Shown here: positions 7,461 to 38,901 of the stretch, piece after piece | Layout: each line of letters opens with the position of its first letter | How positions within the stretch are numbered: the first letter of the stretch is position 1 | Source of the DNA: an uncultured Ectothiorhodospiraceae bacterium | Lineage (GTDB): Bacteria > Pseudomonadota > Gammaproteobacteria > UBA6429 > Thiohalophilaceae | DNA: 42,555 bases | Direction of reading: 5' to 3' | Assembly: GCA_947260005.1 (NCBI GenBank) | Contig: CAMYOL010000040.1 | Coordinates: forward strand, 8,392 to 50,946 | Notes under the pieces: model-generated | The model's database searches: none | What the model was told of the DNA's origin: nothing | The model's input: the letters and a program-made list of their open reading frames with translations, nothing else | Translations under genes and position numbers: made by a program

Positions 7461-7614
7461 GCTACTTTAGCAAACTAAATCCTCCTTCTGGATTGGCCAG
7501 ATGGAGAAAATTCGCACACGCACCGTCACAGTGTCCTGGGTGCCCACTGGAATTGATTTTCTTGAGGGGTTGGACAATGGGGTGTGTGGAGGCTTAACCC
7601 TGGAGATTAAAAAT
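7461..7614 (+). promoter_or_regulatory. rpsB 5' leader, putative S2-responsive control element
   Basis: About 150 nt of untranslated leader with visible secondary structure. Hairpin 1 spans 7482-7506 (CTCC and TCTGG pairing with CCAGA and GGAG around one T-T mismatch, loop ATTGG). A second stem pairs CAGTG with CACTG in the region 7529-7552. A third pairs GGGTT (7567-7571) with AACCC (7596-7600) just before the GGAG ribosome binding site (7602-7605). In gammaproteobacteria the rpsB leader is a known site of feedback repression by S2; that this leader works the same way is inferred from position and structure. Confidence 0.5.
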
Positions 7615-36372: not shown

Positions 36373-37407
36373 TTGTCGTTATCCTTACAACAAACTTTCC
36401 CAACGGCATACGCACCGGTTATCGGTCAAGCTAAACTAAAGCAATTTATTGAAGACTTCGTTGTCGTTGAAACGCTTTCATTTCCTTTTAGCGGTGAAGG
36501 TGAACATGGTTATCTGCGAATAAAAAAAACCAATCAAAATACCCAGTGGGTCAGCCAGCGACTTAGTAAACACTTTTCCGTTAAACAACGTGATATCGGC
36601 TATGCCGGTTTGAAAGATCGTCACGCAATAACGACGCAATGGTTCAGTTTACCCTATAAATATCTTGGCGAAGAAAAGTTAGCCGCATTTTCTGAAGAAG
36701 GCATGGAGATACTGGAGCAGCAACGTCATTCAGGTAAATTGCGTAAAGGTGCGATTAAGTATAATTATTTTGAAATCACGCTGCGTGATGTAAATGCCAA
36801 TAAAAAAGATTTAACAGAACGATTAAGTTTAATTAAAGATTTTGGCGTACCCAATTATTTTGATGAACAACGGTTTGGTCGTCAGAGGCAAAATTTAAAT
36901 GCGTTTGTTGATATGATAGGCGGGAGATTTAAACCGAAGCGCGATAAGCAGCGAATCTATACTTCTGCGGCGCGATCCTGGTTGTTTAATCAGGTATTGT
37001 CGGTAAGAGTTGCGCAAAACAATTGGGCGACGGGTTTACCGGGTGATGTTTACATGTTAGATGGCAGTAAAAAAGTGTTTTCGACTGAAGAGCAGGATGA
37101 TGTGTTACGACAACGACTTGTGGAAAATGACATACATCCGACTGCGCCATTATGGGGAGCAGGGGAGTTGACAACAAACCTGGATGCGCGTCAGTTAGAG
37201 CAAACGGTCCTGGATGAGTGGATAGACTGGCGTAAATTCTTGCAAAAGGTTGGACTCAAACAACAACGCCGCGCCACTCGGGTAATCCCTGCTGATTTTG
37301 ATTACGATTATAGCCAAGATCTCAAACAACTTCGATTAGCATTCAAACTTCCCAGTGGCTCTTATGCCACCAACCTGATTCGTGAAATTATAGAGCCTCT
37401 TGCTTAA
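36373..37407 (+). CDS. truD: tRNA pseudouridine(13) synthase
   Basis: 344 residues. It makes pseudouridine 13 in tRNA-Glu. The catalytic Asp is in DIGYAGLKDRHAITTQWFS, preceded by EDFVVVETLSFPFSGEGEHG and followed by NYFDEQRFGRQRQNLNAF. The family's TRUD insertion domain lies in the middle and the C-terminus ends with LPSGSYATNLIREI. The only available start near the conserved N-terminus is TTG at 36373; an in-frame TGA stands 4-6 bases upstream, and no good ribosome binding site is visible, so it may be coupled to ispF. Synteny ispF-truD-surE is conserved, but here truD and surE are separated by three inserted elements. Confidence 0.96.
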   Translation: MSLSLQQTFPTAYAPVIGQAKLKQFIEDFVVVETLSFPFSGEGEHGYLRIKKTNQNTQWVSQRLSKHFSVKQRDIGYAGLKDRHAITTQWFSLPYKYLGEEKLAAFSEEGMEILEQQRHSGKLRKGAIKYNYFEITLRDVNANKKDLTERLSLIKDFGVPNYFDEQRFGRQRQNLNAFVDMIGGRFKPKRDKQRIYTSAARSWLFNQVLSVRVAQNNWATGLPGDVYMLDGSKKVFSTEEQDDVLRQRLVENDIHPTAPLWGAGELTTNLDARQLEQTVLDEWIDWRKFLQKVGLKQQRRATRVIPADFDYDYSQDLKQLRLAFKLPSGSYATNLIREIIEPLA

Positions 37408-37458: not shown

Positions 37459-37593
37459 TGTCATCCTGAGGAGTGAAACGACGAAGGATCTTGGGTTGGT
37501 TGCCAGGTAAGATCCTTCGCTCCGCTCCACGTGCTTTGAACCCCTTCGCGGTTCGTGCAGTATTCACTACGCTGCGCTCCGCTTAGGATGACA
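37459..37593. repeat. nested inverted repeat (REP/MITE-like) downstream of truD
   Basis: Outer arms TGTCATCCTGAG (37459-37470) and CTTAGGATGACA (37582-37593) match as inverted repeats at 11 of 12 positions. Inside, CGAAGGATCTT (37482-37492) and AAGATCCTTCG (37509-37519) form a perfect 11-bp inverted repeat with a 16-nt loop. The TGTCATCCTGAG...GAAGGATCTT pattern resembles a palindromic interspersed repeat seen in many bacterial genomes. No open reading frame is supported between the arms. With the following direct repeats it fills most of the 282-bp truD-MCP gap. Confidence 0.75.
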
Positions 37594-37673
37594 GGTTGGC
37601 AGGATGACAGGTTAACTAATTGTTGAAGGTGACTGGTTTAGCAAATCATTCAGGATAATAGGTTAGCTAAAAT
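37585..37673 (+). repeat. degenerate direct repeats (AGGATGACAGGTT family)
   Basis: AGGATGACAGGTT occurs at 37585-37597 and 37601-37613 (period 16). Weaker copies follow: AGGTGACTGGTTTAGCAAAT from about 37627 and AGGATAATAGGTTAGCTAA at 37652-37670, at about 25-bp spacing. The copies start inside the right arm of the inverted repeat, so they look like amplified ends of that element. Confidence 0.65.
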
Positions 37674-37689
37674 TTAGCGGAATAAGATC

Positions 37690-38901
37690 TCAACCTGAGA
37701 TCTTAAACTGATTGATCAATGAATCTAGTTGCGTCGATAACTTGGATAGTTCCGTACTTGCCGCTGTCGTTTGATCGGCGGCGCCGGCGGTATCGTGAGA
37801 AAGCTGACTAATGTTAACAATATTTTTATTCATCTCTTCAGCGACTGAGGTTTGTTCTTCAGCGGCACTGGCGATCATTGCATTCATTTCATTAATCGTG
37901 GTGACGGCACCCGTAATGGCCTCCAGCGACGTAGCGGCTTCTTTAGCCTGTTCGACACCGGCCTGTGCAGAGGTCCGGCCCTGTTCCATCGCATCGACTG
38001 CATTGCGCGCACCGCCTTGTAAGCGCTCGATCATTTGCTGAATTTCCTGCGTTGAGGTTTGTGTGCGACTGGCTAAGGTTCTAACCTCATCAGCGACCAC
38101 GGCGAAACCGCGACCTTGTTCACCGGCACGAGCCGCTTCAATCGCGGCATTCAAGGCGAGCAGATTGGTCTGTTCGGCAATACCTTTGATGACATCTAAT
38201 ACGGTACCAATGTTTTCACTATCATTATCAAGTTGGTGAATGACTTCTGCGGTGCGTTCAACATTATCTGCGAGTTGCTGGATGGCTTGTGATGTTTGCA
38301 TCACAATGGTTTTACCACCTTTGGCTTCGTTGTCCGCATTGTTAGCGGCCTCGGCTGCTGACGAGGCATTGCTTGCCACTTCCTGTACCGTTGCTGCCAT
38401 TTGATTCATTGCCGCGGCGACTTGTTCGGTTTCACTGGATTGGTTTGAAATATTATGACTGGCATTACGCGCGACGGTATCCATTTCTTCTGATGCTGCA
38501 GCAAGTTGGCCAGTCGCGCTGACGATTTGTTGGATCAAGGCTTCAAATTTTTCCACCATCAGGTTGAACGATTCTGCAACGTACTGCATTTCGTCTTTAT
38601 TATTGTTTTCCATCCTCACCGTCATGTCGCCACTACTCATGGTATCAAGTGCCATTCGCAGGCTTGAAAAATTTATATTGATCGAAGCGTTATAGGCCAG
38701 AACGAAATAGCCAAACACGACTATGATTACGCCTGTTACTGCAAACAAGGTATTTTTTAATGCGGCATCCTCAATCCCCACAATTGCTATCCAGCCTAGG
38801 ATAACCATCGGCGTAAGACTCATAATAAACAGGGCAATAATTTTAGCTGTGCTTGGAATACGATTTAAGATGGCGACAGCAGGGGCAAAAACAGGGTTCA
38901 T
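37690..38901 (-). CDS. methyl-accepting chemotaxis protein without a periplasmic sensor domain
   Basis: 403 residues. Two hydrophobic helices (about 20-42 and 51-70) are joined by a loop of only about eight residues, so there is no periplasmic ligand-binding domain. A HAMP-like segment (about 70-123) follows, then a long methyl-accepting coiled coil whose hairpin tip (240-275) reads [20 protein letters not shown] and [15 protein letters not shown]. The C-terminus (LINQFKISG) lacks an NWETF-type pentapeptide. It signals to CheA/CheW; the stimulus might be membrane state, redox or a partner protein. AGGAG precedes the ATG and a sigma-28-like promoter lies upstream. No che or fli gene is in the window. 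Confidence 0.93.

Follow-up and report, generated by a model that had tools for sequence, protein, structure and literature searches.

REPINs, which Bertels and Rainey are said to have described in 2011, are inverted doublets of short palindromes that carry a GTAG tag and are linked to a Y1 transposase. A study from 2025 reportedly describes a different kind of partnership for the Ssn proteins, site-specific single-strand GIY-YIG nucleases, in which a small protein is paired with a many-copy repeat, and these nucleases are said to cut only single-stranded DNA at the accompanying repeat.

A further group of short palindromes, the CGTC REPs, is described in the main text of Di Nocera et al. (2013, PMC3733652) as having an unpaired tag, a stem that starts with A-T, frequent organization into dimers, and a CGTC to TGTC change in the tag. 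According to that text, the CGTC repeats show no association with transposase genes and apparently have no dedicated transposase, and the question of what mobilizes them is left open. The same text equates the Neisseria CGTC member with dRS3, and Rickettsia RPE-4/RPE-6 and Neisseria dRS3 are placed in its families CGTC-1 and CGTC-4. The word GIY-YIG is absent from the main text of PMC3733652, and a word search of the RepRanger main text (PMC12306157) finds neither GIY-YIG nor RAYT (REP-associated tyrosine transposase). A search of a library of papers using the letters of the repeat returned no paper that names it, and the matches, judged by title or the start of the abstract, look like chance.

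The window analyzed here is a stretch of 42,555 nt, and the element under study occupies positions 37459-37673 within it. We read this element as a TGTC-tagged, REPIN-like, non-autonomous inverted hairpin pair whose partner is probably (roughly 70%) a small hairpin-directed GIY-YIG nuclease rather than a Y1 transposase. As far as the main text of PMC3733652 describes them, the CGTC REPs have in common with the element an unpaired CGTC/TGTC tag, first stem pairs A-T and T-A, frequent dimers of opposite orientation, an extragenic location downstream of genes, and the lack of a flanked tyrosine transposase gene. In the element itself, these superfamily features appear as an unpaired TGTC tag and an ATYCT/AGRAT stem that opens with complementary AT. 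The element differs from the CGTC REPs described there in its 5-bp lower stem with GA/GA mismatches, in the small xYGNAGx hairpin of its commonest form, in a CTT tail rather than CCA, in its several core lengths (27-38 and 85 nt), and in having a proposed partner gene. The 8-9 bp stem and CCA-fitting tail of the four described CGTC families are therefore absent from it, and the element is a member of the CGTC/TGTC superfamily that lies outside families CGTC-1 to CGTC-4 as that text describes them. Rickettsia RPE-4/RPE-6 and Neisseria dRS3 are fellow members of this tagged superfamily, a likeness drawn from their description. With REPINs the element shares an inverted doublet of short palindromes as the repeated unit, whereas neither the GTAG tag of RAYT-moved REPs nor a linked Y1 transposase is found here.

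Table 1. Features of the element and its flanks, in window positions.
Feature	Position	Strand	Description
truD	36373..37407	+	Flanking gene, converges on the element
Unit A, 33/34-nt class	37459..37492	+	TGTC tag, lower stem ATCCT, GA, core, GA, AGGAT, CTT
Spacer of inverted pair	37493..37508		16 nt
Unit B	37509..37593	-	85 nt; two ends as in unit A plus a long interior
AGGATGACAGGTT copy 1	37585..37597	+	Unit B tag end plus GGTT; exact
AGGATGACAGGTT copy 2	37601..37613	+	Exact
AGGATGACAGGTT possible decayed copy	37626..37638	+	3 mismatches, not above chance
AGGATGACAGGTT probable decayed copy	37652..37664	+	2 mismatches
Methyl-accepting chemotaxis protein (MCP) gene	37690..38901	-	Other flank

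Units A and B have the ends TGTCATCCT and AAGGATCTT in common (consensus TGTCATYCTRA...GAAGRATCTT), and unit A, at 34 nt in the window, falls beside a 33-nt size class that makes up 15 of 99 units in its own genome. Because the two units face each other and share their ends, the arms of the inverted repeat are nested. The outer arms (37459-37470 and 37582-37593) match at 11 of 12 positions and the inner arms, CGAAGGATCTT (37482-37492) and AAGATCCTTCG (37509-37519), at 11 of 11, so the nested inverted repeat that the first-pass annotation had reported is real. When the 135-nt pair is folded as single-stranded DNA, it reaches -28.6 kcal/mol (z = -4.5), which none of 200 shuffles equaled; each unit folded alone does no better than shuffles in the same energy model (z of 0.97 and 0.10). 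The closest BLAST relatives of unit B are 92% identical to it. The element has no Rfam family at the gathering score, PADLOC found nothing, and the NCBIfam matches are all below the cut-off. Elsewhere in the window, positions 7495-7598 match the t44 RNA (RF00127) with 66.6 bits.

The tail that follows unit B had been described as four graded copies of AGGATGACAGGTT produced by amplification of the end of the element. Two of these copies, beginning at 37585 and 37601, are secure; the other two are doubtful, that at 37652 being plausible and that at 37626 standing at chance level. Allowing up to three mismatches, AGGATGACAGGTT has 20 matches in the window against 9.5 expected. The proposed amplification thus holds in part, with only two tail copies secure here and amplified ends found at other loci as well. 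Five such loci (L304, L324, L330 and L347 in the same genome, and L389 in the congener G002) carry tandem arrays in which the tag end with about 10-20 nt of flank is repeated outward from the hairpins; by eye, the array at L389 has about 10 copies.

We then looked at the copies in the genome of origin (G000), a 3.71-Mb draft in 81 contigs. BLAST with the element returned 111 pieces, and the pattern TGTCATYCTGA-N(4-28)-GAAGRATCT has 101 exact matches, 55 on one strand and 46 on the other, with none for the reversed pattern. The element had been proposed to be a non-autonomous interspersed repeat, and these copies support that proposal: rather than a single copy without kin, there are about 100 units in this genome and relatives in others. 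Unit statistics were taken on 99 of the 100 matches listed, in 54 clusters, leaving out the nested reading C17:117244-117287. The commonest length is 27 nt (58 units), followed by 33 nt (15), 38 nt (10) and 35 nt (9), with a few others. Adjacent units are arranged +- in 23 cases, -+ in 15, ++ in 6 and -- in none, and the gaps within +- pairs are chiefly 15-16 or 26-37 nt; these are strand orientations, and the CGTC dimers of PMC3733652 are described as mostly HH.

The variable base of the stem is paired in nearly all units, forming C-G in 36 of the 54 distinct units of this genome and T-A in 16, with 2 mismatched (p = 1e-11), a covariation measured only over the Y and R allowed by the search pattern. 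Scanning named genomes for the 27-mer gave at least 118 stretches, and among those listed the same base pair is T-A in 119, C-G in 89 and mismatched in 4. In the 27-nt form, the core reads xYGNAGx in 48 of 58 units and its outer two bases are complementary in 56 of 58; GCGNAGC is a very stable DNA mini-hairpin. Among 102 matches, 92% have a pyrimidine just before the tag. In other genomes, G059 and G011 for example, the ends are retained and the palindromic cores are quite different. As for the 85-nt form, it looks like a 27-nt form that has gained an interior insert. One locus (L305, G000:C7, about 300370-300706) has a tandem duplication that takes in an MCP gene 3' end and a repeat pair, and one of its copies has a clean 57-nt insert inside one hairpin, between TGTCATTCT and GAGCAAAGC.

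Two further lines of evidence were considered and dropped. An asymmetry of the tails had been considered as proof of cutting at the tag, but over 53 loci (L300-L352) there are 16 orphan 5' ends and 18 orphan 3' ends; with no excess of the 5' ends, the tails alone do not point to such a cut. A second family of palindromes, GGGTCAGAGACGTATT...AATACGTCTCTGACCC or similar (L040 and L041 on G000:C24; L322, L345 and L336), surrounds two Y1 genes, and two of its copies (L322 and L345; GGGTCAGAG) hold a single TGTCATYCTGA unit in the loop. We do not use these nested units as proof of insertion, given that the loops of other palindromes differ in both sequence and length.

To describe the position of the clusters relative to genes, ORFs of at least 120 aa stand in for genes in the neighbor counts. 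Of the 54 clusters, 52 were taken, two lacking the strict motif centrally, and only 3 of the 52 overlap an ORF of this size. Both neighbors could be called for 47 clusters, which excludes the three that overlap an ORF and two at contig edges; the neighbors are codirectional for 26 of these, convergent for 20 and divergent for 1. Such a distribution would suit host RNA hairpins, terminators or mRNA stabilizers, that arose in place, although a location downstream of genes also fits insertion where it is tolerated. We consider an origin as host RNA hairpins very unlikely, given that near-identical 27-mers occur in at least 20 phyla, that the hairpins are linked with one group of nucleases, and that they are absent from two congeners, G001 and G002, in which the vertical conservation of copies within the genus that this explanation predicts fails.

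The truD-MCP site illustrates this absence. The MCP gene follows truD in three congeners (G001, G002 and G003). In G001 and G002 the site is empty, the ends of truD and the MCP gene being 9 nt apart, and in G003 the 143-nt gap between the two genes holds a different inverted pair of short units, slightly decayed. Among 14 truD loci from other genera of the family, the next gene is an MCP gene in 5, Smr followed by surE in 7, and neither in 2, and surE stands immediately after truD in two genomes from other families. From these gene orders, the separation of truD from surE predates the element and is unrelated to it. The idea that the element marks the truD/surE junction is not supported by these comparisons, since the element is lacking from two of the three congeners with MCP after truD, and MCP or Smr follows truD at 12 of the 14 loci from other genera.

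The distribution across genomes is patchy. The repeat is present in 3 of 40 genomes of the family sample, in 8 of 274 genomes of the class sample (own genome included), where the pattern was narrower and unable to match the 27-nt form, and in 6 of 398 genomes of the phylum sample (own genome included). The stretches of the 27-mer scan belong, by record title, to at least 20 named phyla, with 4 unplaced. Thus, the commonest form of the hairpin has a wide but patchy spread over at least 20 phyla. DNA searches with an 85-nt pair of this genome against plasmids and with the window element against phages gave no match, but these searches are insensitive, because related pairs do sit on a Planktothrix plasmid.

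Given the REP-like size of the units, their inverted dimers and their location downstream of genes, the elements could be classical REPs or BIMEs moved by a REP-associated tyrosine (Y1) transposase, as the first-pass annotation had proposed. The genome of origin has three PF01797 (Y1) genes, and PF01797 genes were found in 12 of the 14 genomes searched, which comprised 12 repeat-bearing genomes (11 of them with such a gene) and two repeat-free congeners. Nevertheless, none of the 30 Y1 loci examined (3 from this genome, 25 from other repeat-bearing genomes and 2 from a repeat-free congener, of 39 PF01797 matches) carries a TGTCATYCTGA-type unit, and G343, which has 30 units, gave no Y1 match in the PF01797 search. 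The two Y1 genes of this genome for which both flanks are available lie instead among palindromes (GGGTCAGA, GGGTCAGAG or GGGTCAGAC), the third being cut by the contig start, and the tag is TGTC and not GTAG. We therefore reject the Y1 transposase as the mobilizer and regard this explanation as highly improbable.

An inverted pair also mimics the terminal inverted repeats of a MITE that depends on a DDE insertion sequence. Such an element would be expected to leave flanking duplications, which the earlier annotation had suggested counting, and 24 pairs show none of recurrent length. Flank matches of 2 nt occur in 3 pairs (1.5 expected), of 3 nt in 1 pair, and of 4-7 or 9 nt in none; one pair of the 24 (L304) has an 8-nt match, which lies inside a tandem array. 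The lack of a recurrent target duplication is easier to reconcile with a single-strand route than with a DDE element. All-against-all BLAST of the neighbors of the at least 118 named copies gave only gene clusters present in up to 13 loci, and among the copies listed no obvious transposase family stands beside them. We consider a MITE highly improbable.

The neighbor BLAST also missed the GIY-YIG gene, which was found on reading the clusters of the genome of origin. At one of them (L326, G000:C41:2497-2793), a gene for a 98-aa GIY-YIG protein lies between arrays of TGTCATYCTGA hairpins, with units on both sides. A phmmer search over the collected loci revealed a similar gene beside units in G059, in a Pedobacter and in a Nitrospirae record. 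The PF01541 domain is found in three small proteins with E values of 2e-15 to 2e-16 (2e-15 for the C41 protein). A profile built from three GIY-YIG proteins was searched in 67 genomes, 65 of them repeat-bearing and two repeat-free congeners, and gave matches in 53. We examined 105 loci, 73 with strong matches (at least 60 bits) and 32 with lower-scoring GIY-YIG genes, leaving out five matches with E values of 1e-15 or below that are mostly fragments (G705:C140, G715:C57 twice, G710:C50 and G710:C37) and many weaker partial ones.

A unit lies within 300 bp of 44 of the 73 strong genes, and on both sides of 32, compared to 2 of the 32 lower-scoring genes, none of which has units on both sides; because two substitutions are permitted, this test also takes in near classes such as TGTCATCCCGA. 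The majority of exact stems is YCT for 29 of the 73 strong genes. Many of the other strong genes have hairpins with a like tag and A-T start and other stems, TGTCATTGCGAG, CGTCATTCCCGC and CGTCATTTCGAG for example. A generic [CT]GTC-ATNNN hairpin is found at 54 of the 73 strong genes and 2 of the 32 lower-scoring ones, against a mean of 2.1 of 73 and a maximum of 6 after shuffling; its background in whole loci of 3-4 kb is 6 of 30 for Y1 and 8 of 24 for truD of other genomes. The two hairpin tests together cover 62 of the 73 strong genes, and the remaining 11 have no tagged hairpin in either.

These genomes had largely been chosen because they bear the repeat. For a test on other genomes, the profile was applied at an E value of 1e-15 to the class sample and matched in 62 of 274 genomes. 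Setting aside four genomes known to be repeat-bearing removed 8 of the 83 places and left 75 loci representing 74 genes (L475 and L534 are the same gene); a second gene at G281:C110 stands outside this count. In these genomes, which were not chosen for the repeat, a [C/T]GTC-tagged hairpin lies within 330 nt of 52 of the 74 genes and on both sides of 38. Distant windows (900-1230 nt) of the same loci have a hairpin in 5 of 55 cases, these being the loci where each far window contains 300 nt or more, and shuffled flanks have one in a mean of 2.45 of 75 (maximum 9). At the level of whole genomes, co-occurrence is weak: a strong nuclease is present in 4 of 8 repeat-positive genomes and in 58 of 266 others (p = 0.08), where repeat-positive was called with the pattern that is unable to match the 27-nt form. 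Among individual repeat-bearing genomes, G103 (7 units) gave no such GIY-YIG gene in the profile search, G003 (16 units, 70% complete) has a CGTC-type GIY-YIG gene only, and G011 (4 units) has only a decayed, weak GIY-YIG match.

A tree was built from 83 proteins and 102 columns, with 42 of its 80 inner branches open, and labeled with five stem classes and, as a sixth class, the lower-scoring proteins. On this tree the hairpin class changes 17 times compared to a shuffled mean of 32.3, and none of 200 shuffles is as low. By class, the YCC stem changes 5 times against 10.3 (0 of 500 shuffles as low), TGC 3 against 5.8 (0 of 500) and YCT 14 against 21.4 (2 of 500). TTC is little clustered (3 against 3.9; 27 of 500) and GCT is not clustered on the tree (4 against 3.9; 500 of 500). 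Six of 11 YCC rows, the CGTCATTCCCGC ones included, fall in one starred branch. The hairpin class thus appears to follow the nuclease tree in part.

Paralogs within one genome show the same pairing. The genome of origin has two strong GIY-YIG paralogs, that on C41 with TGTCATYCTGA hairpins and that on C67 with CGTCATTCCCGC hairpins, while its third, lower-scoring GIY-YIG gene has no hairpin within 300 bp. Judged by eye, the second GIY-YIG gene with CGTC-tagged hairpins (L417, G000:C67, where they are CGTCATTCCCGC; L414, G003:C78) seems to occupy one site in the two congeners, ahead of an apparent pheS start.

Position and co-divergence together show that the nuclease and the hairpins are partners. 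From this partnership we infer cleavage and mobility of the hairpins by the GIY-YIG nuclease, along the following lines. The nuclease would recognize the folded single strand, exposed during replication, repair or DNA uptake, and would nick the foot of the hairpin near the TGTC tag. Repair or strand invasion at the nick might then copy hairpins into new single-stranded sites, and the same process may sometimes give rise to tandem copies of the tag end like those of the AGGATGACAGGTT tail. The proposed partner resembles the Ssn proteins in being a small GIY-YIG protein whose gene is accompanied by its own repeat.

The linkage and the stem that partly follows nuclease lineage make the question of the mobilizer directly testable, and the likely target of such a nuclease can be read from its flanking hairpins. 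Should the Ssn work already assign a repeat to each Ssn, the outline of the partnership would be known and the present hairpins would be a new class of it; the new part would then be the TGTCATYCTGA class, its paired anatomy, its occurrence in at least 20 phyla, and the filled and empty sites. The data also suggest that the GIY-YIG nuclease is the enzyme that the CGTC/TGTC repeats were thought to lack. A broader proposal, which we hold tentatively and at slightly less than even odds, is that the CGTC/TGTC-tagged REP superfamily as a whole has small GIY-YIG nucleases as its dedicated enzymes. In such a transposase-free system, a nuclease that nicks hairpins, its gene flanked by hairpins of its own and also present on plasmids, would spread hairpins across genomes and phyla, with the stem as an address for each nuclease lineage. 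If true, it would be a parallel to the RAYTs and REPINs with an unrelated enzyme.

The main rival, which is compatible with our preferred reading, holds that the hairpins are places where the nuclease cuts and not its passengers, that they serve to control DNA uptake or recombination, and that they were multiplied by selection or gene conversion rather than by transposition-like movement. The same linkage and co-divergence data fit it, as does a Neisseria gonorrhoeae homolog (L540, NZ_CP119140.1) that is 42% identical and lies among CGTCATTCCCGCGCAGGCGGGAATC repeats (CGTCATTCCCGC hairpins). In Neisseria, such a nuclease-repeat pair is reported to work in the control of DNA uptake or recombination. 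On the other hand, the patchy copy families, limited to 3 of 40 genomes of the family, and the inverted pairs of set spacing with their filled and empty orthologous sites look like spread. We regard the rival as somewhat less likely than not. NZ_CP119140.1 and NZ_CP119142.1 are 2.17-Mb Neisseria gonorrhoeae records that are filed as plasmids and whose size is chromosome-like.

As for homologs of the nuclease, tblastn with the protein matched 34 plasmid records, the two 2.17-Mb Neisseria gonorrhoeae records among them, and the same protein gave no match in phages. On a Shinella plasmid, the nuclease gene lies between CGTCATCCTCGGG...CCCGAGGATCC hairpins, and on a Planktothrix plasmid (L541, NZ_LR882964.1) it lies within TGTCATTCTGAG pairs with tandem tails. 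The Planktothrix module of nuclease and hairpins stands between an MmeI-type restriction gene and the DISARM gene drmA. In a genome of Candidatus Magasanikbacteria of about 1.0 Mb (G728, L196), there are 13 GIY-YIG matches, and several of these are both strong and flanked by tagged hairpins, of more than one class.
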